This document shows, piece after piece, positions 1,353-17,055 of a DNA stretch of 38,607 nt. Positions within the stretch are counted from its first letter, which is position 1, and the number at the start of each line of letters is the position of its first letter. A program made the translations under genes and the position numbers. The stretch comes from Microcoleus sp. GA_180221_E-2-1-MAG-45_12. GTDB lineage: Bacteria; Cyanobacteriota; Cyanobacteriia; Cyanobacteriales; JAAUUE01. The DNA is taken from the NCBI GenBank assembly GCA_020692245.1, contig JAIMKT010000022.1, positions 10,871 through 49,477 of the forward strand. Direction: 5' to 3'. A model generated the notes under the pieces. The model was not told the origin of the DNA and searched no databases. It worked only from the letters and a program-made list of their open reading frames with translations.

Positions 1353-4300
1353 CTAATTATTTTGAATAGGGAGATTGATAATAAATTCTGTACCGCTGCC
1401 CAATTCAGATTTGACTTGGATCTGCCCGTGGTGTTTTTCGACAACAACTTGTTGAGCAATCGCTAATCCCAAGCCCGTGCCTTTGCCCACACCTTTGGTG
1501 GTAAATAAATCATCAAAGATTTTCTCTCGGACTGCTTCACTCATCCCCGCCCCGTTATCTTGAATATAAATTACTGCCTGAGATGGAGTTTGTGATTCAT
1601 CTAATAGTTTATTTGAGAATTCATTTAACAATTTATCTTCTAGTTTATCTTCTAGTTTGTCTTCTAATCGATCATGGGCTAAATTAGAAAAATTAATTAC
1701 TTCGGTTCTGACAATGATTTGATTGGGAGCCGCTTGGATATCAGCATAACTCCGTCCTGTATTTGCTTCTTCGAGGGCATCGATCGCATTAGCCAAAATA
1801 TTCATAAATACTTGATTTAACTGCCCGGCATAACATTCTATCTGGGGTAAATCACCATAATCTTTGATCACCTGAATTTCTGGACGAGTTTCATTAGCTT
1901 TGAGGCGATGCTTCAGAATCATAATCGTGCTATCAATGCCATCATGAATATTACATTTAATTGGTCGATCGCTATCCGCCCTCGAAAAAGTCCGCAGACT
2001 ATTACTAATATCTTGAATTCGCTTCACTCCTTCCCGCATAGAGCCGACTAACTTTGGCAAATCTTCCCGGATATAATCTAAATCAATAGTCTCTATTTCT
2101 GTTTGAATTTCTGGATCAGGTTGGGGATATTTTGCTTCATACAAATCAACTAAGCCCAACACATCATTAATATAATCTAGAGCTGGCTGAATATTTCCAC
2201 TCAAGAAACCAATGGGGTTATTAATTTCGTGGGCAATTCCGGCAACTAAATTCCCCAGAGCCGACATTTTTTCACTTTGGACAATAGTTAATTGGGCTTG
2301 CTTTAGATCAGAGAAAGCTTGTTGGACAGATTGATATAAACGGACATTTTCTAGGGAAATTGCAGCTTGGGCAGAAATTAAATTTAAGATTTCAATGCGG
2401 TTACTGGTAAAAACTCCTGTAGTCAAATTATTTTCTAAATACAAAATCCCAATCAGATTTCCTTGACTAAGCACTGGGCTACAGATCACACTTCTAGGTT
2501 GATGTTCTTGGAGATAAATATCTGTGGCAAAATAGGGAGAGATACAGGCATCTGCAAGGACTATGGGTTGTTTACTCCGTTTTACATTGTTAACCAAACT
2601 AATAGCTACATCTTGACTTAATTCCACCGGAATAGATGGCAAAAGTTGGGGAGATTCACCTTGTTTTACTAGGGCTACAACTTCCAGACCAAGGTCTTGT
2701 TTCAGAAGTAGTACACACTTAGTTGCCCCAGCATTGGCAATCAGAATTTCTAAAATAGTTGTCAGGAGTTGATCAAGCTCAATCTCTCCAGAAATTGCTT
2801 GGGAGGCTTTGAGGAGAGTTGCCAAATCAAGGGATTCTGAAATACTAGTGGAGGTTTGAATAAAGGCGATCGTCTCCTGAGAAATAGTATCTTGATTGGT
2901 AATTTCTCTCAGCACATCCGCCGTGCGTACCTGTTGTAAAATAGGCATTAATAATTGAGAATAACGAGTTTCCAAATCTATAACTTTGGCTTTTGCTCCC
3001 CAATAAATGTAGCAATAGTAAGCCTCTTGCATGTAACCTGCTGCGACCTTTTCTTTACCCCAGTTCAGATAAAACTTTGCTGCTAGTTCATTAGCTAAGG
3101 CTTCTTCTTGAATATGTTTATTAGTTTTGGCAATGGCTATAGCTCGATCGTAGTTTTCGATGGCTGCTAGTTTATCTCCAGAAACCCTTGCCATTTCGGC
3201 GGTAACTAAACAACTTAGATGTTGAAAATTAACTGGATTATTTTCTGCCCATAGTTCTAGCAATTGGTGGTAGTCAGAAATTTTTTGCCAAGAGGTCAAT
3301 TGCTCCTTGATCGACACATTTTGATAACGAGCTAATAGTAACAAAGAGTAGATAAAGCAGTGATAAATGTAGGGTAGCAATCCTTGGGGAGCTACGTTGA
3401 TAATTTCTTGCTCTGCAATTTTTCCGTACTGAAAAGCAGTTTCAATCTGATCAAAAAAGAACAAAAGTTGACTCTTGAAGATATTATAAATACAAATCAC
3501 TTGCCAGTTTTTATGTTGATGGCACTGTTCTAGATAGGCAGATTCTTGGAGATAAAAATCAATCCCCATATATTTATAAATAACTATTTGTCCACCCAAA
3601 AATAGGTCGATCGCCCACTGATTTTTGTACTTTTGACTAAAAGCTAAAGATTCACTAATCTCTATAAATAATTGTTCTAAAGGGATACTTTGGTAAAACC
3701 GACAATACATATTATGCCCAAAGGCATAGGCAGCATACTGCAAATTACTCGACTCTAAACCAACTCGATAGGATGTCAAATAATCCTCCGTTGCCTTAGC
3801 AAGAGGTGCAGACCAATGGCGGAGGGAACTACCGATGATTAAATAAGCAACACTTTCTGCTGATTTATTATTAAATACCTGCATTAACTGGAGTGTCACT
3901 GCTAAGAGTTCTTCCGTATTTTGGTAATTATTTAATGCATAGCCTCGCAGACTGCCAAAGGAGGGGTAAATATAGCCAATCTCTGGAGTATTGCCATACT
4001 GTAAACATAAATTCATCGCCTTGGTGCAAATAACTGACCATAGTTTCTGATGAGAACGATAGGTCGGTGGCCCCATACTAATTAGGAGCTTGATTACCAT
4101 TTTCTGCTTTGGTTGCGTCATATTTGGTAAGGTAGCCAAATCAGCAAAGGAACGACCTTTCATGGTTTCTTGGATAATCGCTAATTCTGTATCCTGCACC
4201 AGTTCTAGATCTGTTTCTGGCAAATCTACTTCTAATAGGGCAAGCCCTTGGCGACCTGCTTGAATTGCTTCTGGATAATTAGCTTGAAGAGTATGCTGGA

Positions 4301-7019
4301 GGATAATCATATTATAAACTTCAGCTTTTTCTAGGGGCGTTTTTGCTCGATCGACTGTTTCGTGGAGCCAGTGTTCTGCAAGCTGAAAATTACCATTTAG
4401 GTATTCTACTTCTGCTCGTTCTTTATATAGAGAAAGACTTAGATCATAATATTGCTGCCAATGATTCACTGGAAGTAAGTTCATCCCTGTAGTGATATAC
4501 ATCAAAGCTCCTGTATAGGCTGTAGCGGCTTTTGCTTTGATCCCAGCAAGTAAATTAAGATGGGCTAATTCTGCTTTAGAAATGGATTTCTTGGCTTGAT
4601 AGACTTGATTGTTTTTATGTGATTGATCTGATTTGTCAAATTGATTTGTTTGAGTGTTAATATTGTCAAGTTCAAGATCATCAAGATCATTAAGATCATC
4701 AAGATCACCAAGATTTAAATGATTTACTATTTCAAAAATTCGCTCTTCTTTTTCTGATGCCGATAATTTTTCTAATAATAAAGTGCCGATATGAAAATGA
4801 ATAGATTGTTTTTGAGCTGGATCAATGAAAGAATAAGTTGCCTGTTGGACTCGATCGTGTAGGAATTTGTAGGGAACTGTAATCTCACTGGGGGAATCTG
4901 TTTCTAGATGCTCTGGAGATTGAATAGATTGAATATCTGTAGATTGAAAGAACTTATAAACTTCACTAATTGGCAAAACTAATCCTGCTTGTAAAGCTGC
5001 CCACAAAGCTGTAGCCACCTCCGTATTCGATCGCTCCGAAACAATCGCTAAAGTGGACAAATCAAACTGATTACCAATACAAGCAGCTAGTTTTAATATT
5101 TCTTGAGTTTCTATAGGTAATTTCTGCAATTGCTGCCCCATAAACTCCACAACATCATCTGTTAGAGCCGCTTCCCGAACTTTGGCAATATCACACCGCC
5201 AGTAGCCTCCTTGGACATCAAATTCAATTAACTTTTCTTGATGTAAAGCCTTGAGAAATTGGGTGACAAAAAATGGATTTCCTTGAGTTTTTTGGTATAT
5301 TAATTCCGCCAGAGGTTTCTCTAAATTATCATCACAGCTAAGAGTGTCAGCTACAAGATGATTAAGACTATTTTGATCCAACGGTTCTAGGGCGATCGTA
5401 TTTACTTCTGTTCCAGATTTAGTTATCAAATCTAGTGTTAATCTCAACGGGTGAGTCGCAGATATTTCATTATGCCGATAAGCTCCAATTAAAAGTAAAT
5501 ATCCTGTGGTAGCAGCAGACATTAGTAATTGAATTAAACTTAAAGAAGCCGAATCTGCCCACTGGAGATCGTCAAGAAAAATAACTAAAGGATGTTCTGG
5601 CTTTGTAAATACTTGAATAAACTTCTGGAATAGCAAGTTGAAGCGATTTTGAGCAGCGTTGCCACTCAGTTCTGGGGCTGGGGGTTGCGCTCCAATAATT
5701 TGTTCTAGCTCTGGGATTACCTCCATAATTACTTGACCGTTTTCACCCACAGCCTGAAGGATTCTCGATCGCCATATTTGTAGAGCTTGATCATTTTCAT
5801 TTAATAGTTGTCCCATCAAGTCTCGAAATGCTTGCACAAAAGCACTAAGAGGAATATTTTGATTAAACTGATCAAACTTTCCTTGAATAAAATAACCACG
5901 CTGCCGAGTAATTGGCTTGTGAATTTCATGGACAACTACAGTTTTTCCTACGCCCGAAAAACCTGCCACTAACATCATTTCTGTCCTGCCCCGACTAACT
6001 CTTTCAAAGGCAGTTAATAGCTCAATAACCTCATTTTCTCGACCATAGAGTTTCTCTGGAATCGTGAATCGATCGCTCAGGTCTCGCTCTCCCAATCTAA
6101 ATATATTAATAGTTGCCGTTGTTTGGAATTGATCCACACAAAGTTGTAAATCATGTTTCAAACCCAAGGCACTTTGATATCGATCTTCCGCATTTTTTGC
6201 CATGAGTTTACTGACAATGCTAGATAAGGCTAGGGGAATTTGCTCATTAACCTGATGAATAGGGATGGCTTGTTTTGCAAGGTGATAATGGATTAATTCC
6301 ATTGGTTCTTTAGAAACGAAAGGCAGATTTCCAGTTAACAACTCATAGAAAGTAACACCCAAAGAATAGAAATCACTACGATAATCAATACCCCGATTCA
6401 TCCGTCCAGTTTGTTCTGGTGATAGGTAAGCTAGAGTTCCTTCTAAGATATTAGTATTCTGGATTTCTTTAATTTCCCTTGGCAGCAGTGAAGAAATACT
6501 AAAATCAATTAACTTAATCTGTTTAGTATCAGGATTAATCAATATATTGTCTGGCTTAATATCTTTATGGATAACTCGATTTTGACATAGATAATGTAGA
6601 GTATCTGTTAATTGTAAAGCTATATCAAAAAAGTCTTTTAAGGCAATAGTTAGAGGAGTTTTATCTACTGTTATTAATAGTTCTTGATTTGGTTTTTTTT
6701 GGTTTAATGATTTTAGGTAATCAGATAAAGAAATCCCACCAAAGTCTTCCATTACCAAGGCATAGGTATTGTAGTATGCTTCCAAATTTAAGGATTTTAC
6801 TATATGGGGAGAGTCGAGATTTCTAGTGATTGTATATTGGTTGCGAAATTTCAACAGTTCGCTGAGGGGAGGATAGTCATTTTTTAGCAGTTTAATGACA
6901 ACAGGTAACTGCTCACTAGTCTGATCATTAGTATGGATAGCTCTATACACTAAAGTACGAGTCCCAACATAGATTTGCTCCGTCAATTGGTAACTCGGTA
7001 GTTTTGTAATTATATCCAT
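1353..7019 (-). CDS. Hybrid Ser/Thr kinase - AAA ATPase - GAF - histidine kinase (HstK type)
   Basis: This is an 1888-residue signalling protein of a type common in filamentous cyanobacteria. The N-terminal Ser/Thr kinase (about 9-290) has Lys43, an HKD catalytic loop at 151-153 (usually HRD) and DFS in place of DFG at 172-174, so activity may be atypical. A predictive-ATPase domain follows, with Walker A GFSGVGKT at 353-360 and Walker [10 protein letters not shown] near 479-487. A long helical TPR-like region leads to a GAF domain (about 1430-1580). The C-terminal histidine kinase has its phospho-acceptor His1597 in GIAHEINNP, then an N box, DNGAGM and a GTGLGLAI G2 box. No membrane segment or receiver domain is visible, so a separate response regulator is expected. 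Two in-frame tandem repeats interrupt it, near residues 768-782 and 1785-1796. The function class is certain; the signal is unknown. Confidence 0.93.
1632..1667. repeat. Three 12-bp tandem units inside the histidine kinase gene
   Basis: The units at 1632-1643, 1644-1655 and 1656-1667 are near-identical; the first two match exactly and the third differs at two positions. Read on the minus strand they encode three copies of LEDK at about residues 1785-1796. They lie between the N box and the DNGAGM box of the ATPase domain, and they keep the frame. Confidence 0.9.
4674..4718. repeat. Five 9-bp tandem units inside the hybrid kinase gene
   Basis: The units, of the type AAGATCATC, start at 4674, 4683, 4692, 4701 and 4710; the last is degenerate. 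On the minus strand they encode an acidic Leu-Asp-Asp run in a linker after the ATPase domain. The frame is preserved. Confidence 0.88.
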
Positions 7020-7399
7020 AGCTTAGTTTTTTTATTCTAAGGGAATTGTTGATTGGGGCTGTACCCCAGTAGAGGTCAGTTTGAGGCTTTCCCCGATTAT
7101 TTTTAGGTAATTTACCGGATAAATTAAACTTTTTTAGAATAAGCCTCTTTATAATATATTAAAATTAACTATCAAAACTCTGGATTGAGATATACGACTT
7201 TTTTGATAGGAATTAAACTTAGGTATTGATCAATACTAATTTTTTATTTTTCTGGACTTTTCAAATTCTATTTTGGGGAATAATTTCTTGAGGATAACTT
7301 ATAGTAAATAATGGGTATTGCTAGACTCTCAATGATATCTACAAAACTTTAGAAAATATCCTTACCAAAAAAATCCTTTATTTTTATTTAAAGTTACCA
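7020..7399. other. Divergent intergenic region, no gene seen
   Basis: This 380-bp, very AT-rich stretch separates the divergent hybrid kinase gene (minus) and membrane protein gene (plus), so it must contain promoters for both. I cannot place -35/-10 boxes with confidence and see no RNA gene or strong hairpin. Confidence 0.5.
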
Positions 7400-8089
7400 A
7401 TGATTTGGGGGAATATCGTGACTAGAAGAATTAGCTTTATGCTTCTATGGCTGGGTTTTACGAGTTACGCTTTTTTCTTGGCTCCTCCAGATGACCCGAA
7501 TACAAACGTTTTAATTGGTAATTTAATTAATATGCAACTAGATGGGGTCAACCCTCTGGTTGTAGCTTTGTTCAACCTCATGGGCATATTTCCCATGCTC
7601 TATGGATGTCTAATGTTTACTGATGGCAGGGGACAAAAACTGCCAGCTTGGTTATTTGCTATAGCTTCCTTTGCGGTGGGAGCTTTTGCAATTTTGCCTT
7701 ATCTAGCATGGCGATCGCCCAACCCACATTTTTTGGGCAAGAAAGATTGGGGTTTAGTAATTTGGGAATCGAGACTGACCGGGATTGTCTTACTAGCCGG
7801 GGCGATCGGGCTTTTATATTATGGCTTCACTCAAGGTAACTGGGCAGATTTTGTCCAGCAATGGCAGACTAGTAGATTCATCCACGTGATGAGCCTAGAT
7901 TTCTTAATGCTCTACCTCGTTTTTCCAGCACTCCTAGGGGATGACATGGCAAGAAGAAAGCTAGATAATCCCCAAATTTTCTGGGCTGTAGCCCTCTGCC
8001 CCCTCTTAGGTCCTCTCCTCTACCTCTGCCTGCGTCCCTCCTTACCACTATCACCAGCAGTTTCCCCGGTACCTATCCCTAGCGATTAA
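7400..8089 (+). CDS. Conserved cyanobacterial polytopic membrane protein
   Basis: This 229-residue hydrophobic protein has an estimated six membrane segments. The first is near residues 10-28, followed by an 'APPDDPN' turn. A conserved-looking core (NLMGIFPMLYGCLMF, then WLFAIASFAVGAF) resembles proteins found across cyanobacteria and, I believe, in plastids, but I cannot assign a function. The ATG at 7400 has no good ribosome site. A GTG at 7418, six bases after a GGGGG run, is a plausible alternative start and would remove six residues. The gene ends tail to tail with, and overlaps by 11 bp, the epimerase remnant on the other strand. Confidence 0.75.
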   Translation: MIWGNIVTRRISFMLLWLGFTSYAFFLAPPDDPNTNVLIGNLINMQLDGVNPLVVALFNLMGIFPMLYGCLMFTDGRGQKLPAWLFAIASFAVGAFAILPYLAWRSPNPHFLGKKDWGLVIWESRLTGIVLLAGAIGLLYYGFTQGNWADFVQQWQTSRFIHVMSLDFLMLYLVFPALLGDDMARRKLDNPQIFWAVALCPLLGPLLYLCLRPSLPLSPAVSPVPIPSD

Positions 8090-8201
8090 AAATATCGTAG
8101 CGTTGACCAATGCGACCTTGGTTTTCTCTGTACCAATCCATGACTTCTTTGATCCCTTCTTCCAGAGAAATTGTTGGCTCGTAGCCGATCGCCCGTAGTT
8201 T
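8079..8201 (-). pseudogene. C-terminal remnant of an NAD-dependent sugar epimerase/dehydratase
   Basis: The minus-strand frame of the RND gene continues past its TGA stop (8202-8204) for 40 sense codons to a TAG at 8079-8081. The translation reads KLRAIGYEPTISLEEGIKEV, then MDWYRENQGRIGQRY, and ends in NR. This is the usual C-terminal pattern of extended short-chain dehydrogenase sugar epimerases (xLGYEPxxSLEEGIxxxxxWYRxN). No start codon or Rossmann domain is present, so it is a fragment. The last residues of the RND frame before the stop (FKSQGDNPV) probably belong to the same remnant, with the TGA standing where the intact enzyme would have a sense codon. Family membership rests on pattern recognition, not a search. 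Confidence 0.65.
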
Positions 8202-11200
8202 TCAGACTGGGTTATCTCCCTGAGATTTGAACACAGCTCTTGAGGGGAGATAATCTGGGTCGGAAGACACTGTGGGGTAAGTTGATTCCGGTGGTGAGGG
8301 TGGTGGGGGAGGGTTGCCTTTGGAAAAAGATTCTGTGAGATTTTTCACCACTACATAAAGTACAGGGACGAGAAGTAGGGTCAAAATGGTAGAAACCAAG
8401 AGACCACCAAATACGGCTGTCCCCAAAGACCAACGGCTGGCTGCTCCTGCTCCCGAAGCGGTGACGAGGGGAAAGAACCCAGCTAAGGAAGAAATGGTAG
8501 TCATTAAGATGGGGCGGAGTCTTTGACGCACAGCTTCTAAGGCTGCTTGGGCGATCGTCTTCCCTTCCTCTCGAGACTGGTTGGCAAATTCCACAATTAA
8601 AATTGCATTTTTACTGGCTAACCCAATCAACATCACCAACGCCACCTGACAGTAAATATCGTTGACCAAACCCCGCAGAGAGACGAAGATTAAGGCTCCG
8701 AGGATCGCAAAGGGTACGGTTAGAAGAATAATGAAAGGATCGATATAGTTTTCGTACTGGGCTGAGAGGATTAAAAACACCGCTAAGATTCCCAGGGCAA
8801 AAAAGATCCCTGCTTGACCACCTGATTGAATTTCCTCTCGGGACAGCCCTGTCCAGTCGTAGCCCAAACCGGGTTGATTCATTTCCTGAAAGATCTGCTC
8901 CATGGCAGCGATCGCCTGTCCAGAACTATAACCGGGGGCAGCACTACCTTGAATTTTGATTGTCCGGGCGAGGTTGAAATGGCTGATATTTTGAGGGCCG
9001 GTAATGGGAGTTATCTGGGCAATTTCATTGAGACGTACCATCTGCCCCGTGCGGGAACGGACTTGGATTTGGCTAATTTTGTCGGGGGAATCTCGAAATT
9101 GAGCATCGGCTTGAATATACACTCGATAACTGCGCTGGGCAAAGGTGAAATCGTTAACATACTGTCCCCCAATGTAAGCACCAAAGGTATTCATGGCTTG
9201 GGCAAAATCAACATTGAGAGCTTCTAGGCGATCGCGATTAATGTCAATTTGGTACTGGGGAGTGCTGGAGGTGAATTGGGTAAAGACCCGGCTCAAGGCT
9301 GGATTTTGGTTAGCCCTGCCAATCATCTCTTGGGCGATCGCCAAAAATTGCTCAATACTTAGTTGTCCATTGGTCTGGTCTTGGAGTTGAAATTCAAACC
9401 CGCCAGTTACGCCATAGCCAGAAACCGCCGGGAGATTCGCCGCAAAGATCAAGGCATCCTGATTTTGGCTAAATATCCCATTTAAGCGTCCCACAATTCC
9501 ATTAGCTGATTGTCCCTCTCCCCGCCGCTCTTTCCAATCCTTGAGCTTGATAAAAAATGTCGCTTGATTGGGCCCGTTACCTCCCAAACCAAAGCCAGCA
9601 ATGACCACAGAAGCTTCCATTTCTGGGACGGACTGCTCTAGGGTCTGCGCCACTGTATTTACTACTTTTTCTGTGGAGATTAGGGAAACTCCATCGGGTG
9701 CTTGGATAATACCGACGATCACGCCTTGATCCTCCTCTGGCACAAAACCATTAGGTACGGAATTATAGACCAAGGCTGTAGCTACCAAGCCGAGTACGAA
9801 GACCCCTACTACCACCATCCGCCCCCGGATCAAGGACTTACTCAGACGCTCATAACCTGCTAATACCCAATCAAACCCCCGGTTGAACTGGCGAAAGAAC
9901 CAGCCGAGAAATCCTTGTCCTTCTCCATTAGCACGACGCAGGAACAGAGCTGAGGTACTGGGGGTGAAACTAAGGGCATTAAAGGTGGAGATGGCGATCG
10001 AAAAGATAATCACCAAGGCAAACTGTTGATACATGATCCCCGTGGCTCCCGGAAAGAAAGACACTGGAATAAATACGGCAATTAGAACTAACGAAGTGGC
10101 AATTACGGCTCCAGAAAGTTCTTGCATAGCAGCCATAGCAGCTTGGGGAGGAGACAAACCCTCTTCGATCTTGGCGGCGATCGCTTCCACAATCACAATG
10201 GCATCATCCACCACTAGTCCTGTTGCTAAGACGAGGGCAAACAGGGTCAGGTTATTAAGAGAAAAACCTAAAACATAGGCAAAAGCCATGGCTCCGATCA
10301 AGGACACAGGAACGGTGATTGCAGGAATAATCGTCGCTCGCCACTCTTGTAAAAAGACGAAAATTACTAATACTACGAGGAGAATTGCTTGAATTAAGGT
10401 AATTACCACTTCCTCGATGGAGACTTCCACAAACTTGGTGGTGTCATAGCAAATAACTGATTTGATCCCCGGCGGAAAATTTGCCTCCAACTGAGCAAGT
10501 CTAGCTTCGAGAGCCTTGGCAGTTTCTAGGGCGTTGCTCCCCGGTAGTTGATAGATCAACATGCCTACCCCCGGTTTCCCTTGCACCAGCGCCGAAGTTG
10601 TGTAATCCCTTGCTCCGAGTTCAGCCCGTCCCACATCTTTTAGTTTGACTAGGGTGCCATCAGTTTGGGTCTTGATCACCAGATTTTCAAAGTCTTTGAC
10701 TTCCTTGAAGCGACTATTGATCCTGAGGGGAAAACTAGATTTTTGGTCATCCTTGGTGGGGGCTTGCCCGATCGTCCCAGCTCCCACTTGAATATTTTGA
10801 GAAGTGAGGGCAGCACTAACATCTGTTGAGGTCAATCCCCGAATCGCAAGGGCGTTGGGGTCTAGCCATAGCCGCATAGCATACTGTCGTTCCCCAAATA
10901 AAATCACGTCTCCGACTCCCGGCACCCGCTTGATGGCATCCAAAACGTACAGGTCAACATAGTTACTCAAAAATAGGTTGTCGTACTCGCTATTTTCGGC
11001 ATAGAAACCATAGACTCGGAGAATGCTATTGGAACGGGCAACGGTGGTGACTCCTGTTTGCCGTACGGAGGCGGGGAGGGTTGGTTGGGCGATCGCCACC
11101 CGGTTTTGGACGTTGACTTGATTAATATTTCGATCGCTGTTGGGGGGAAAGAAAGCAGAAATAGAACTAGAGCCATCGTTACCACTGGTGGAGGTCATAT

Positions 11201-11435
11201 ACTGCATCCCTTCCACCCCGTTGATCTGCCGTTCAATCACCGTGGAGACCGATTCTTCTACAGTTTGGGCATCAGCACCGATGGAAAAGGCACTGGTTTG
11301 TACCTGAATCGGGGCAATATCTGGCAAGTTGTTGATGGGTAACTGGGGAATAGCAATAAGACCCACCATCAAGATCAAGAGAGTGCAAACTGTTGATAGA
11401 ACCGGGCGGCGGATGAAGGTATTGGCGATCGACAT
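8202..11435 (-). CDS. RND multidrug efflux transporter, HAE1/AcrB family
   Basis: This is the inner-membrane pump of a tripartite efflux system, driven by proton flux. Its 1077 residues are slightly more than the usual 1020-1060. The N-terminus (MSIANTFIRRPVLSTV) is the typical first helix. The proton-relay residues are present: Asp410-Asp411 in GLVVDDAIVIVEA and Lys942 in GLASKNAILIVEF. These correspond to AcrB D407/D408/K940. The membrane fusion protein gene lies 84 bp upstream on the same strand, so the two are probably co-transcribed. No outer-membrane TolC-like gene is present here. The final 35-40 residues, after a proline-rich run, look foreign and lead in frame into an epimerase remnant. 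Substrate is unknown. Confidence 0.95.
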   Translation of the reverse strand: MSIANTFIRRPVLSTVCTLLILMVGLIAIPQLPINNLPDIAPIQVQTSAFSIGADAQTVEESVSTVIERQINGVEGMQYMTSTSGNDGSSSISAFFPPNSDRNINQVNVQNRVAIAQPTLPASVRQTGVTTVARSNSILRVYGFYAENSEYDNLFLSNYVDLYVLDAIKRVPGVGDVILFGERQYAMRLWLDPNALAIRGLTSTDVSAALTSQNIQVGAGTIGQAPTKDDQKSSFPLRINSRFKEVKDFENLVIKTQTDGTLVKLKDVGRAELGARDYTTSALVQGKPGVGMLIYQLPGSNALETAKALEARLAQLEANFPPGIKSVICYDTTKFVEVSIEEVVITLIQAILLVVLVIFVFLQEWRATIIPAITVPVSLIGAMAFAYVLGFSLNNLTLFALVLATGLVVDDAIVIVEAIAAKIEEGLSPPQAAMAAMQELSGAVIATSLVLIAVFIPVSFFPGATGIMYQQFALVIIFSIAISTFNALSFTPSTSALFLRRANGEGQGFLGWFFRQFNRGFDWVLAGYERLSKSLIRGRMVVVGVFVLGLVATALVYNSVPNGFVPEEDQGVIVGIIQAPDGVSLISTEKVVNTVAQTLEQSVPEMEASVVIAGFGLGGNGPNQATFFIKLKDWKERRGEGQSANGIVGRLNGIFSQNQDALIFAANLPAVSGYGVTGGFEFQLQDQTNGQLSIEQFLAIAQEMIGRANQNPALSRVFTQFTSSTPQYQIDINRDRLEALNVDFAQAMNTFGAYIGGQYVNDFTFAQRSYRVYIQADAQFRDSPDKISQIQVRSRTGQMVRLNEIAQITPITGPQNISHFNLARTIKIQGSAAPGYSSGQAIAAMEQIFQEMNQPGLGYDWTGLSREEIQSGGQAGIFFALGILAVFLILSAQYENYIDPFIILLTVPFAILGALIFVSLRGLVNDIYCQVALVMLIGLASKNAILIVEFANQSREEGKTIAQAALEAVRQRLRPILMTTISSLAGFFPLVTASGAGAASRWSLGTAVFGGLLVSTILTLLLVPVLYVVVKNLTESFSKGNPPPPPSPPESTYPTVSSDPDYLPSRAVFKSQGDNPV

Positions 11436-11519
11436 GGTAATTTGCTCCTAGAAAGTAAGTCCCCTAGATCGGCTCCTGAAATAGGATTCCGAACCTAAAA
11501 CATGATCCCGAAATAAAAT

Positions 11520-12905
11520 TTACGGTTCTGGTTGAATTGGTACGCCATCCCGCAGTTTGAGAATATTGGATATAGCAACTCGATCGCCTTCTTGGATCCC
11601 CTCCAGAATCGGGTACTGGTCATTCTGGACTTCCCCCAATTTCACTGGTTTGAGTTTGACCACAGATTGCGGCGGCTGCTGTTCACTGTTTTCTTCAACT
11701 ACATACACAAAATTCTGACCACCCATCCGATTTACCGCCTGTACCGGAACTAAAATCCCTGCTTGCTGATTCCAGATAATTCTGGCTCGTACGTACTGCC
11801 CATCTCGTAATCTACCATTTGCATTGCTGAAGCGGGCTTTGACAAGGATTGATTGAGCATTCACATCCACTTGGGGCGAAATAAAATCGAGACTACCCCT
11901 TGTTAGTTGCTGCCCAGTGTTGGCATCTATTAACTCCACTCGTAAGCCCGGACGGAGCTGAGTTCCATTACTTGCTGGCACGGCAATCCGCATGTCTAAG
12001 ACATCATTTTTGATCAGGGATGTCAGAGTCTGCCCCACATTAACGTAATCTCCTGCTTTAACAGCAAAATCACCCACCACCCCATCCATCGGGGCAAGTA
12101 CCTGCTTTTGATTTAAGTCGATCTGAGTAGCCGCCACTTGAGCCTGAGCTTGCTCTACGCCAGATAGGGCCTGATTAATCCCAGCTTGAGCTGCATTCAC
12201 CTGTTTTTCGGCGGCGGTTAAAGTTGCGAGGGCTGAGGTCAGATTATTTTGAGCAATGTCTAGCTGTTGTCTGGCGATCGCCCCAGCACTGACTAGGGAT
12301 TGGGTTCGATCGTATTGAGTTTGCTGTAGTTCCACATCGGCGGCGGCTTTGGCTAGGTCGGCTTCCCTTGCTTCTAGTTGAGCTTGAGCAGTAGTAACGG
12401 CGGCTTCATTGGAGTTGACCAAGGCTAGGGCGCTGACGACATTCGCTTGAGTTCGATCGAGGCTCAGGGAGACGATCGGGGTTCCGGCACTGACTCGATC
12501 GCCACTAGCAACCAAAATTCGTTCGATCCGTCCTTGAATTTGGGGCTGCAAAGAAACCCGCTCTTGAGCTTCTAGAGTCCCCACAAACTCGGAGCTTGAT
12601 TGCAGTTGAGTTGATTCAATAGTTTGAACTTTCACCGGGGTGGGCGGCATTTGGGGTGGTAGGGCTTTACGATTCCCCAATAGTTGCCAAGCTCCAAAAC
12701 CTCCACCTCCCACAACAAGTAAAGCTAAAATACTCCAAAGCCATGTTTGGCGACGACGGGGGCGTTCAAAAAAGTCGGCATCTGAGGATATGGATGCTGT
12801 TGTTTCAGACTCTAAAACTGCTCCAGAGTAGTGGTTAGCCTCAAGATTCTCTACATCCTGATTGGGGTCAGAAGAGCTGGATAGAGTTGGTTGATTGGAT
12901 GACAT
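11520..12905 (-). CDS. RND efflux periplasmic adaptor (HlyD/AcrA family)
   Basis: This 461-residue membrane fusion protein links the RND pump to an outer-membrane channel. A cytoplasmic N-terminal segment of about 50 residues is followed by one membrane anchor (about 54-76, WLWSILALLVVGGGGFGAW); there is no lipobox. Next come a lipoyl half-motif (QGRIERILVASGDRVSAGTPI) and a long Ala/Gln/Leu-rich coiled-coil hairpin (about 150-260). The second lipoyl half (APMDGVVGDFAVKAGDYV) and a beta-barrel domain complete the order usual for AcrA-like adaptors. It lies first in a two-gene unit with the RND pump downstream. Confidence 0.93.
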   Translation of the reverse strand: MSSNQPTLSSSSDPNQDVENLEANHYSGAVLESETTASISSDADFFERPRRRQTWLWSILALLVVGGGGFGAWQLLGNRKALPPQMPPTPVKVQTIESTQLQSSSEFVGTLEAQERVSLQPQIQGRIERILVASGDRVSAGTPIVSLSLDRTQANVVSALALVNSNEAAVTTAQAQLEAREADLAKAAADVELQQTQYDRTQSLVSAGAIARQQLDIAQNNLTSALATLTAAEKQVNAAQAGINQALSGVEQAQAQVAATQIDLNQKQVLAPMDGVVGDFAVKAGDYVNVGQTLTSLIKNDVLDMRIAVPASNGTQLRPGLRVELIDANTGQQLTRGSLDFISPQVDVNAQSILVKARFSNANGRLRDGQYVRARIIWNQQAGILVPVQAVNRMGGQNFVYVVEENSEQQPPQSVVKLKPVKLGEVQNDQYPILEGIQEGDRVAISNILKLRDGVPIQPEP

Positions 12906-13602
12906 AGGACACTAACCCCCTAAGGATTTCACGTTTCATAGATATATTTTTAGGTTGAAGATTTTGAGTTTGAGTCGATTTCAAATATTTATTCGATTAT
13001 CAAGAAGGAAGAAATCGATCGAATATCCTCACCTAAGGCATTAAAAATTAAAGCTGTTTTTAGCTAAATTGAAGGACTGGAGTTGAGATAGGAATTAGAG
13101 ATTATGGAGCGTTATCTGAGGATTATCTGTCTGCATACAAATCTCAATTGAGCTTTTACTCTGTTCACTTCACTGTTTTCACTATTGATGATTTAAAACT
13201 CTCATGATGTATTTTCCTAAATTTAAGGCTTCTAAATTGACTAAGGTTATTACCCCTAGAATTCTTTTCCCCTCCTTGATTAAGCTTGGCAACAAGAAAC
13301 TAAAAGCCTCTATTAATAGTACAAATGCCCTATAGCAAAATTAGTTAACCAACCACGGGCTAATATTTTATATCGACTAGTTGTTATATAATAAATTCCT
13401 GTTCTAACAATGTCAAGCCTTAGAGGGAGAATTTTTGGTCTGTCAAAAGACTGAGTTGAGTTATGGCTAAGATTCGAGATGCATATCCTTAAATTTAAAC
13501 ATTCTAAGATTTGACAAAATGGTTGTCACCATAATTTTCCGAGGATGTAAATATGCATAGGTAGAGTAGAGGCAAAATATGTACAAACAGTATTAAGACT
13601 AA
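12906..13602. other. Long AT-rich intergenic region
   Basis: The 697-bp gap lies between the dprA 3' end and the adaptor gene start, both on the minus strand. It should contain the promoter of the efflux operon. A 43-codon plus-strand frame at 13204-13335 (MMYFPKFKASKLT...) has no ribosome site or recognisable homology, so I do not call it. A weak inverted repeat (7-bp arms at 12991 and 13018) and the palindrome CTATTAATAG at 13310-13319 are present. No RNA gene was recognised. Confidence 0.5.
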
Positions 13603-14793
13603 CTAGTTTCTCTGGTAGCGCATTCCGGGTAATTGGGTAATTAGACCCAGAAGTTCTAGTTGCAATAAAGCTCCAGCAACTTCGGCAGCACTGGTCTGCA
13701 TGGCTTGGACGATCGCATCTAAGGTAATTGGCTCCGGGGGGATTGCTTGCCAAACTTTTAATAAATTGGGGGGGAGTTTAGCGATCGCTGGCGGTGGTGT
13801 GGTGAATAATTCCTGTTGATTTTGAGAGAGAGAGTTTTGGGGCTGGAGGTCTAAACTGGGCAGTTCTCCCAACATTGCTAGTAAATCTTCTTCCCCTGTA
13901 ATTAGATGCGCTCCTTTACTCAGTAGGCTCAAACAACCCAGACCTTTGATATTATCTGGAGAATCGGGCAGGGCATAGACATCCCGGTTATATTCGTTGG
14001 CAATGTAGGCAGTTATTAAGGCTACAGATTTAATGGGTGCTTCCATGACCAGCACGGCTCGACAGAGACCAGCAATGATCCGGTTGCGTTGGGGGAAGTG
14101 GGGGCGGTCTGGGGCTGTGCCTTGGGGATATTCGCTGACGACTAAGCCCTGTTTGACGATATCTCGATACAGCCCTTGGTTTCGGGGGGGATAGGCAATA
14201 TCAATCCCAGTCCCCAGCACAGCGATCGTTCTCTGTCCTACTTCTAGACAAGCTCTGTGGGCTTCAGTGTCAATGCCTGCTGCCATCCCTGACACAATTA
14301 AAAAGCCTCGTTTCGCAAGGGCAGTAACTATGCGCTTTGTCCACTTTTTGCCGTGGGGAGAGGGGTCTCGTGTGCCAACAATGGCGATCGCTGGGGTGAT
14401 TCCTTGGCTTTCTAGGGAGTTGGGTTTACCTCGGTAGTAGAGAACTGGGGGTGGGTTAGGAGTTTCGAGAAGTAGGCGGGGATAATCTGGGTCGGCGGGA
14501 GTCCAGAAATGGGGATTTTTGATGAGGTGTTCTTCAAGAAATTTTTGGGGATCAATGGTCGATCGATTTTCTTGGATCCGCACAGATAATTGTTGACCCA
14601 GCCCTTCTACTTCCTGTAATTCTCTCGCAGGGCTTACCCAAGCAGCGCCCAGTGTCCCAAACTGTTGCTCTAGACGGCGCAATAGCACGGGGCCAATACC
14701 GGGAATCTTTGACCATGCTAGCCAGTACGATCGCTCCTTTAGGTGATTATTTTCATGATCGGCAGTACCCTTCGAGAAATTATCGACACCCAT
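13603..14793 (-). CDS. dprA: DNA-processing protein DprA
   Basis: DprA binds incoming single-stranded DNA during natural transformation and loads RecA. The 396-residue protein begins with a helix-hairpin-helix/SAM-like region (about 28-75, IPGIGPVLLRRLEQQFG). A Rossmann-type DprA domain follows, with IVGTRDPSPHG near 138-148, SGMAAGIDTEAHR at 168-180, the VLGTGIDIAYPP segment and FPQRNRIIAGL, all family signatures. A C-terminal winged-helix-like domain (about 330-396) completes it. It lies 48 bp downstream of dnaX on the same strand and is probably co-transcribed with it. Confidence 0.96.
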   Translation of the reverse strand: MGVDNFSKGTADHENNHLKERSYWLAWSKIPGIGPVLLRRLEQQFGTLGAAWVSPARELQEVEGLGQQLSVRIQENRSTIDPQKFLEEHLIKNPHFWTPADPDYPRLLLETPNPPPVLYYRGKPNSLESQGITPAIAIVGTRDPSPHGKKWTKRIVTALAKRGFLIVSGMAAGIDTEAHRACLEVGQRTIAVLGTGIDIAYPPRNQGLYRDIVKQGLVVSEYPQGTAPDRPHFPQRNRIIAGLCRAVLVMEAPIKSVALITAYIANEYNRDVYALPDSPDNIKGLGCLSLLSKGAHLITGEEDLLAMLGELPSLDLQPQNSLSQNQQELFTTPPPAIAKLPPNLLKVWQAIPPEPITLDAIVQAMQTSAAEVAGALLQLELLGLITQLPGMRYQRN

Positions 14794-14841
14794 CCAACAA
14801 AAATCCTAGCAAAAATCCAAAGTTATATTTCCCTAGTCTAA

Positions 14842-17055
14842 CTAAAATACGCCATCTAAGTTAACAATACGACCATCAAAAAAATTACTAATTTGTTCTA
14901 GGGCTGCCAAGGATGCTCGATCGTAGCTTTGATTTTCCCCTTCTATGCTTTCTTCTAAGGTTTCTGTAGGGGTTTCTGCGGTCTGAGGAGAAGTTAAATT
15001 TGTTGTGGAGACTTGGTTGGGGTGGTTAGATTGATGGGGTTTGTCTAGGGAGGAGGCAGGAGGGGCGGGAATTACTGCTACCTGACTAGTCCCCGAAGTA
15101 GATCGGGGGGACTCGATCGAGAATCCCGGAGAGGTCGATCGGCTAGCTCCTTGACCATTACTGTTGCCATGACCATTACCATTATTCCCGTTGCTCCCAT
15201 AGCCATTACCGTTATTACCATTTGCCTTAGCATACTGAGGGTAACTATTACCACCATGACCATTCCCAGCAGAAACCCCAGGGCTAGGATTCTCGCCAGA
15301 ACCATTTGTGCTGTTAGCGTAGTTATGTTTTGGCTCCTGTACTGATGTTGTAGAGGGTGTTGCTGGAGTTGAGGCAGAGAGATTTTGGGGGGTTTGGGAG
15401 TCTGGAGAATTTTGAGGAGTTTCTGGGGTCGGTAATTTTTTGCCAATCTGCAACTGTACTACTACCTTGCGACCACAAAGTTTCGTAAACGCATTTTCAA
15501 TTTCCTCTTGCTTTCGCTTGGCAGTACTGACGAGGTTTTGATTAGTGATGCCAATGATCGCCACTACGCCATCAAATTGCAATAGGCAACAGTGCTGAGT
15601 TAAAAAGGCTTGAGTAGACAGCATGGGGATATGCTCTACCACTTCCTGCCAAGTTTCCAGCATTTCATCAACTTCTGGTTCTGATGGTAAAGGGGCAGAA
15701 GCCTCTACAGGATTTACTGCTCCCGAAGTTAATTCCGGGGATTGAGGAGTATGACCATTAACATGACCGTTTTGACCATTGGTGGAACCGTTGGCTCGAT
15801 CGCCCGTAGCACCATTACCAGATACCATAGCCCCTTCAGGACTAGAAGAACTTACCTGTCCATGAGAAACCATAGAGGCTGAAACGCCCGGTGCAGTTAG
15901 TAAAGGCATCACGCCACTTTGATCAGGCAACAGCAATCCCAATAAAGTTACCTCTAGCCAGAGCCGGGGCTGGGTCGTATTTTTGATTTGAACTTCGCTA
16001 TCCCGGAGATATTTGCTGCCAGCAAGGATTTTATCGGTAGTCCAGCGATTTGCCTCTTGGGTGAGTTGTTGCCAAGTGCTGGCAGTGAGAGCCACAAGAT
16101 CAGGGCTACGGGGTGCAGTTTTGGCAATGAGCAAATCCCGATAAAATCCCCCAAGGTTTTGCAGGACAATCATCGGCTCCTTCCCCCGATCCATCAAGTT
16201 TCTAGCTCGATTAATAATAGTTTCGTGATCCCCTTCAGCGATCGCTTGTACCATCGCCAACAGGTCAATTTCTGACACTGCTCCCACCAAATCCCACACC
16301 TTCTCCGCCGTCACCCCATCCTTGAGCAAACTCAACTGATCCAATAAGCTCTCTGCATCCCGGAGTCCCCCTTGGGAGATTTGGGCAACTAAACGCACCG
16401 CCTCTTCGGTAATATCTATGTGTTCTTGGCGAGCAATCCAGAGCAAATGCGCCACCATGGACTCTAGGGGAATCCGGCGAAAATCGAAGCGTTGACACCG
16501 AGAAATAATTGTTGGTAAAACTCGTTGGGGATCAGTAGTAGCAAGGATAAAAACTACTCTTTCGGGCGGTTCTTCTAAAGTTTTTAGGAGGGCATTAAAT
16601 GCTTGATTTGTTAATCCATGAACCTCATCAATAGCGTATACTTTGTAGCGACATTGAACGGGAGCAAAATGTGATTTTTCAATAATTTCTCGAATGTTAT
16701 CAACCCCAGTATTACTAGCAGCATCAATTTCGATCACATCCATGGCTACGCCGTGGGCAATTCCTCGGCAGACATCGCAGACACCACAAGGCTTTGGGGT
16801 CGGTTCATTGAATGCTAAACAATTGAGAGATTTCGCTAAGATTCTGGCACTAGAAGTCTTACCTGTACCTCTAGAACCTGTGAATAAGTAGGCAGGAGCA
16901 ATGCGCTGGCTTGTAATGGCGTTGGTTAGGGTCGCAGCGATCGCTTCTTGCCCCACCAAGTCGGCAAAAGTCTGGGGACGATACTTGTGGTGGAGTGGCT
17001 CGTAGTTCACGGCTTTAGGGGTGGCTAGAATAGTCTCCATCATAGCGGTTGTCAT
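14842..17055 (-). CDS. dnaX: DNA polymerase III subunit gamma/tau
   Basis: This is the clamp-loader ATPase of the replisome. The 737 residues contain Walker A GSRGTGKT at 60-67, a zinc-binding cysteine set (Cys79, 90, 93, 96), Walker B IDEVHGLT with Asp143-Glu144, and the SRC motif at 185-187. Domains I-III end near residue 380. The C-terminal half is low complexity, with a very Asn/Gly-rich segment around residues 580-632. Unlike the split dnaX of Synechocystis PCC 6803 and some other cyanobacteria, no intein interrupts it. Clustered Met codons at 1, 5 and 6 leave the exact start open by a few residues. Confidence 0.97.
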   Translation of the reverse strand: MTTAMMETILATPKAVNYEPLHHKYRPQTFADLVGQEAIAATLTNAITSQRIAPAYLFTGSRGTGKTSSARILAKSLNCLAFNEPTPKPCGVCDVCRGIAHGVAMDVIEIDAASNTGVDNIREIIEKSHFAPVQCRYKVYAIDEVHGLTNQAFNALLKTLEEPPERVVFILATTDPQRVLPTIISRCQRFDFRRIPLESMVAHLLWIARQEHIDITEEAVRLVAQISQGGLRDAESLLDQLSLLKDGVTAEKVWDLVGAVSEIDLLAMVQAIAEGDHETIINRARNLMDRGKEPMIVLQNLGGFYRDLLIAKTAPRSPDLVALTASTWQQLTQEANRWTTDKILAGSKYLRDSEVQIKNTTQPRLWLEVTLLGLLLPDQSGVMPLLTAPGVSASMVSHGQVSSSSPEGAMVSGNGATGDRANGSTNGQNGHVNGHTPQSPELTSGAVNPVEASAPLPSEPEVDEMLETWQEVVEHIPMLSTQAFLTQHCCLLQFDGVVAIIGITNQNLVSTAKRKQEEIENAFTKLCGRKVVVQLQIGKKLPTPETPQNSPDSQTPQNLSASTPATPSTTSVQEPKHNYANSTNGSGENPSPGVSAGNGHGGNSYPQYAKANGNNGNGYGSNGNNGNGHGNSNGQGASRSTSPGFSIESPRSTSGTSQVAVIPAPPASSLDKPHQSNHPNQVSTTNLTSPQTAETPTETLEESIEGENQSYDRASLAALEQISNFFDGRIVNLDGVF
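15160..15310. repeat. Asn/Gly codon-repeat tract in dnaX
   Basis: On the minus strand this stretch encodes repeated Asn-Gly-Asn/His-Gly units built from degenerate AAYGGN repeats. It forms a flexible linker in the tau-like tail. Unit boundaries are imperfect, which points to old slippage followed by divergence. Confidence 0.75.

Follow-up and report, generated by a model that had tools for sequence, protein, structure and literature searches.

The window, by which we mean the whole 38,607-nucleotide stretch of DNA analysed here, very probably carries the scar of a recent deletion of ~4.9 kb that removed a three-gene cassette beside a normal efflux pump gene; as read from the sequence, this would be an ordinary case of gene loss, with no fused pump. 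The ancestral locus is likely to have resembled that of the sister genome L005 (the MAG Coleofasciculaceae cyanobacterium SM2_1_6, the sole other genome of the genus found), where an epimerase (epimerase-2), a B12-dependent radical SAM enzyme and another epimerase are encoded between the pump and the convergent gene (229 aa in the window). The deletion appears to have taken everything from just past the pump stop up to a point 40 codons short of the end of the last epimerase, so that the pump would have been left intact, with a 40-codon leftover that fell into the pump frame by chance (one in three) and is presumably an untranslated or non-functional scar. Illegitimate recombination is the putative mechanism. 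The evidence that bears directly on the deletion consists of the collinear flanks, the missing block, the lack of this radical SAM gene anywhere else in the genome and the native pump tail; the direction of change, probably loss and not gain, is read from the remnant itself and from one comparison, with a single sister genome and between draft assemblies.

Both flanks of the joint are collinear with L005. On the left, L005 3919-9237 aligns with window positions 13473-8196 at 87%, and on the right, L005 14153-15009 aligns with 8194-7334 at 85% (both blastn), with nothing between the two blocks, and ~4.9 kb, from the pump stop to the last 40 codons of the epimerase, is missing in the window. In L005, the intact epimerase gene lies at the same locus, ~4.9 kb from the pump and on the same strand, and the end of epimerase-2, on the opposite strand, is found 3 nt behind the pump stop. 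The convergent gene on the right flank is widespread: at E up to 1e-20, 120 of the 148 related genomes have a homolog. At the divergence between the window and L005, the break can be placed no more finely than 8194-8202 (Table 1), and no direct repeats or clear microhomology that would account for it were found. Scans for terminators and promoters, run around the joint and also in L005, gave no terminator-like site in either. The only further member of the genus among the 148 related genomes searched, G001, encodes an epimerase and a radical SAM protein identical to those of L005 over their full length, and because its pump tail and downstream bases also match, we take it to be SM2_1_6.

Table 1. 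Features of the window around the deletion and of the corresponding locus in the sister genome L005
Sequence	Feature	Coordinates	Strand	Length or extent	Evidence or remarks
Window	Convergent conserved cyanobacterial gene, right flank of deletion	7400..8089	+	229 aa	Ortholog L005 14258-14941
Window	Remnant of NAD-dependent sugar epimerase	8079..8201	-	Last 40 codons + stop	39/40 residues as in L005 13285-14268
Window	Deletion junction	8194..8202	-		Two-flank fits: last left-flank base 8202 to 8194; blastn: one block stops at 8196, the next starts at 8194
Window	RND (AcrB/HAE1-type) efflux permease, complete	8202..11435	-	1077 aa	ORF; Pfam; NCBIfam
Window	Native variable tail of pump, Pro-rich, ending KSQGDNPV	8205..8330	-	Residues 1036-1077	Tails of L005, L006, L007, L008, L029, L034
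Window	Periplasmic adaptor (HlyD/CusB-type), upstream of pump	11520..12905	- (pump strand)		Pfam HlyD_D23, 2.2e-19
L005	Pump	6001-9231	+
L005	Epimerase-2	9235-10185	-
L005	B12 radical SAM protein	11160-13190	+
L005	Epimerase	13285-14268	+	327 aa
L005	Ortholog of window 229-aa gene	14258-14941	-	227 aa

Directly after the TGA of the pump, and in the pump frame, stand the 40 codons of the remnant, closed by a TAG at 8081-8079; the minus-strand translation of 8420-8079 ends in FKSQGDNPV, a stop, KLRAIGYEPTISLEEGIKEVMDWYRENQGRIGQRYDIFNR and the second stop. In a tblastn comparison with the loci fetched by that stage, these residues proved identical to the C-terminus of the L005 epimerase at 39 of 40 positions (97.5%, E 5e-23), the sole differing residue being the one at the deletion joint. 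The intact L005 protein matches the Pfam Epimerase family (PF01370, 5.6e-42), with the match ending at residue 245, and the 40 residues of the remnant alone matched no Pfam family. The end of the remnant and the convergent gene share 11 nt, and the overlap between the epimerase and the convergent gene is identical in L005; since it is conserved in both genomes, the remnant would represent the original end of the epimerase gene in its original place. The earlier note, made from the sequence alone, had read the frame at 8079-8201 as an epimerase C-terminus and had pointed to close relatives for an intact gene at the same locus, and both expectations were borne out in L005. Its description of the epimerase as decayed is misleading, given that, outside the junction, there is no amino-acid change relative to the intact gene.

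In the genome of the window (G000, a draft of 132 contigs, 95.32% complete), the full-length epimerase recovered only the remnant and paralogs at 32% identity or less, which rules out the remnant as a copy of another epimerase of the same genome; the remnant itself found nothing else closely alike there, its other three matches having E of 0.07 or worse. The radical SAM protein had no match on any contig, the same query giving 100% in G001, as a positive control, and 77% in G092. Nor was there an ortholog of epimerase-2 among the five other epimerase-like loci that the epimerase search returned from this genome, the best of which reached 31%. The locus is much like known bacterial deletion scars and truncated pseudogenes: the flanks are collinear, a block is missing, one of the lost genes has left its 3' end, no intact copy of that gene was found elsewhere in the genome, and L005 keeps an intact homolog at this locus. 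Nothing of substance differs, except that the fragment is unusually undecayed, as a recent event predicts.

The pump gene is normal by all that can be read from its product. The Pfam ACR_tran domain is complete, spanning 1-1021 of 1021 (E 0), and the protein scores 1200.5 bits against TIGR00915, above the NCBIfam cut-off of 940.35, which identifies it as an HAE1 RND permease; the likeness to HAE1/AcrB-type systems extends to an adaptor gene that lies upstream in the same orientation. Compared with these permeases, it has a longer variable tail, with an end motif of the QGDNP type that is present in a subset of cyanobacterial pumps. The tail shows 71% identity over 38 aa to that of L005, the pump of which ends in DYLPSGAIFKSQGDNPA (QGDNPA-type), four Nostoc pumps (L007, L008, L029 and L034) end in FQGDAPA, and that of L011 ends in EGDNPA. 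No epimerase-like sequence follows the stop in the pump frame in the L005, L011 or Nostoc loci compared, and the 40-codon extension is not kept 3' of the stop, other sequence being found there in L005 and the four Nostoc loci, where the DNA runs well past the stop. Because the tail type and the position of the stop are common to the L005 and Nostoc pumps, which have no epimerase frame, the TGA at 8204-8202 of the minus strand can be considered native, with nothing fused to it; judged by this comparison, the last ~40 residues of the pump and its stop are native, and the pump is unchanged by the deletion. The end of the gene is far more diverged than the gene as a whole: over the last 45 codons (8205-8339), dS between the window and L005 is 1.4 and dN 0.22, compared with 0.54 and 0.03 for the whole pump gene.

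In this light, the earlier proposal that a deletion joined the pump to the 3' end of an epimerase gene holds for the deletion, in view of the collinear L005 flanks and the missing ~4.9 kb, but not for the fusion, the stop being native. The last 25-35 residues of the pump had been ascribed to the epimerase remnant, and the TGA had been taken to end a fusion; a tail shared with the L005 and Nostoc pumps, which lack an epimerase frame behind it, and a stop at the position common to them contradict both suggestions. A pump-epimerase gene fusion is rejected, as no single open frame leads from the pump domain into the epimerase.

The remnant also carries information on the age of the loss. Leaving the junction aside, the remaining 38 codons differ between the window and L005 by 9 synonymous and 0 nonsynonymous changes, and the dS of the remnant (0.52) is close to those of the pump (0.54) and the 229-aa gene (0.63). 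When 9 random changes were placed in 5000 simulations, the minimum number of amino-acid changes was 2, and had the remnant been unconstrained over the whole window branch, ~23 nonsynonymous changes would be expected, against none observed. The lack of nonsynonymous change, combined with a dS like that of the neighbours, argues for a recent loss, which, if a simple clock holds and each branch took half of the divergence, would fall within roughly the last 13% of the window branch (at 95%). Such a lack of amino-acid change would also be seen with a strain variant or a joint made in assembly and, in principle, with a readthrough tail under constraint.

It seems improbable to us that the joint arose in assembly, or belongs to one strain, without the cassette, of a mixed population, and is thus not fixed in the organism. 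Such an origin would agree with remnant codons that look like those of a still intact gene and with the draft state of the genome, but the joint lies inside a contig and between collinear flanks, the radical SAM gene turns up on no other contig, and no repeat common to both break points, which could make an assembler jump, was found in L005. Much harder still to credit is translation of the 40 codons by readthrough of the pump TGA, with selection maintaining them as an optional cytoplasmic tail. That the codons are open, in frame and devoid of nonsynonymous change would suit this reading; against it, most of the constraint can predate the deletion, the sister gene being intact, the pump stop is in its native position, the RNA fold around it (8260-8060) is no stronger than those of shuffles (z 0.17), and nothing else suggests recoding. 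We find no more plausible than this a newborn in-frame extension, whereby the deletion set 40 intact epimerase codons behind a leaky TGA and the pump would sometimes be made with an extra cytoplasmic tail; if true, that would be a C-terminal extension caught before its fixation or decay. Insertion of the cassette in the L005 lineage, such that the window never had it, is equally hard to accept: the cassette, to judge by its radical SAM gene, is so sporadic that it was likely acquired by transfer at some point, but an empty site would not hold the 3' end of the epimerase at its original position, with an unchanged overlap of 11 nt, and the ortholog-like dS of the remnant would be unexpected of such a site.

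A recent deletion, the reading we prefer, matters little beyond annotation, except as an instance, in one cyanobacterial genus, of a probable sugar-modification cassette being lost, and it carries a warning against annotating the frame behind the pump stop as a fusion or readthrough product. A brief search of literature listings returned nothing on this locus.

A by-product of the analysis is the documentation of a cassette (epimerase - B12 radical SAM - epimerase) that occurs patchily in a few cyanobacteria (L005:9235-14268; L095, L155, L157). At E up to 1e-60, the epimerase is found in 3 of the 148 related genomes, and 2 of the 388 genomes of a class sample have the radical SAM protein at E up to 1e-100. 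Genes for epimerase-2, the radical SAM protein and the epimerase form a conserved unit in G092 and G424, and G404 has the latter two, with no epimerase-2 within the stretch read. The L005 block consists of the same three gene families as these cassettes (partial in G404), and the remnant in the window corresponds to the end of the last gene of the G092/G424 type; unlike those genomes, L005 has epimerase-2 on the opposite strand and its block adjoins a pump gene, and in the window the block is gone. Against NCBIfam, the radical SAM protein scores best with the KedN5 C-methyltransferase subfamily, at 287.7 bits, far below the cut-off of 700. Beside the G424 cassette lies a gene that resembles, we presume, DegT-type aminotransferases, and from the cassette genes together with this neighbour, we infer that the cassette probably modifies an activated sugar.

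The interval between epimerase-2 and the radical SAM gene in L005 holds a decayed second copy of the pump 3' end (L005:10990-11090; PEPIYLKSTSEPDYFPSEAFSKSQGESLA followed by a stop), which suggests that the pump or its tail was duplicated long ago. With the left break placed at this second copy (near 10,990-11,090), the alignment has 31 mismatches, compared with 30 for the real pump end, and a two-step loss that used such a copy is conceivable on these sequences. L005 also contains short dispersed MITE-like repeats of 79 and 100 bp, the 100-bp one partly self-complementary (10655-10875, 3774-3852 and 15056-15155).

A C-terminal motif of the QGDNP(A/V) type, after a variable linker, recurs among cyanobacterial RND pumps: in the window (8205-8228) and in L005, L007, L008, L011, L029, L034, L144 and L150. 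In one set of listed cyanobacterial tails, 8 of 28 end in this way, looser forms (L006, L023) included; in a second set, from which the window and its sister were left out, 3 of 28 do, one of the three having only FQG. This ending is possibly a short binding motif.
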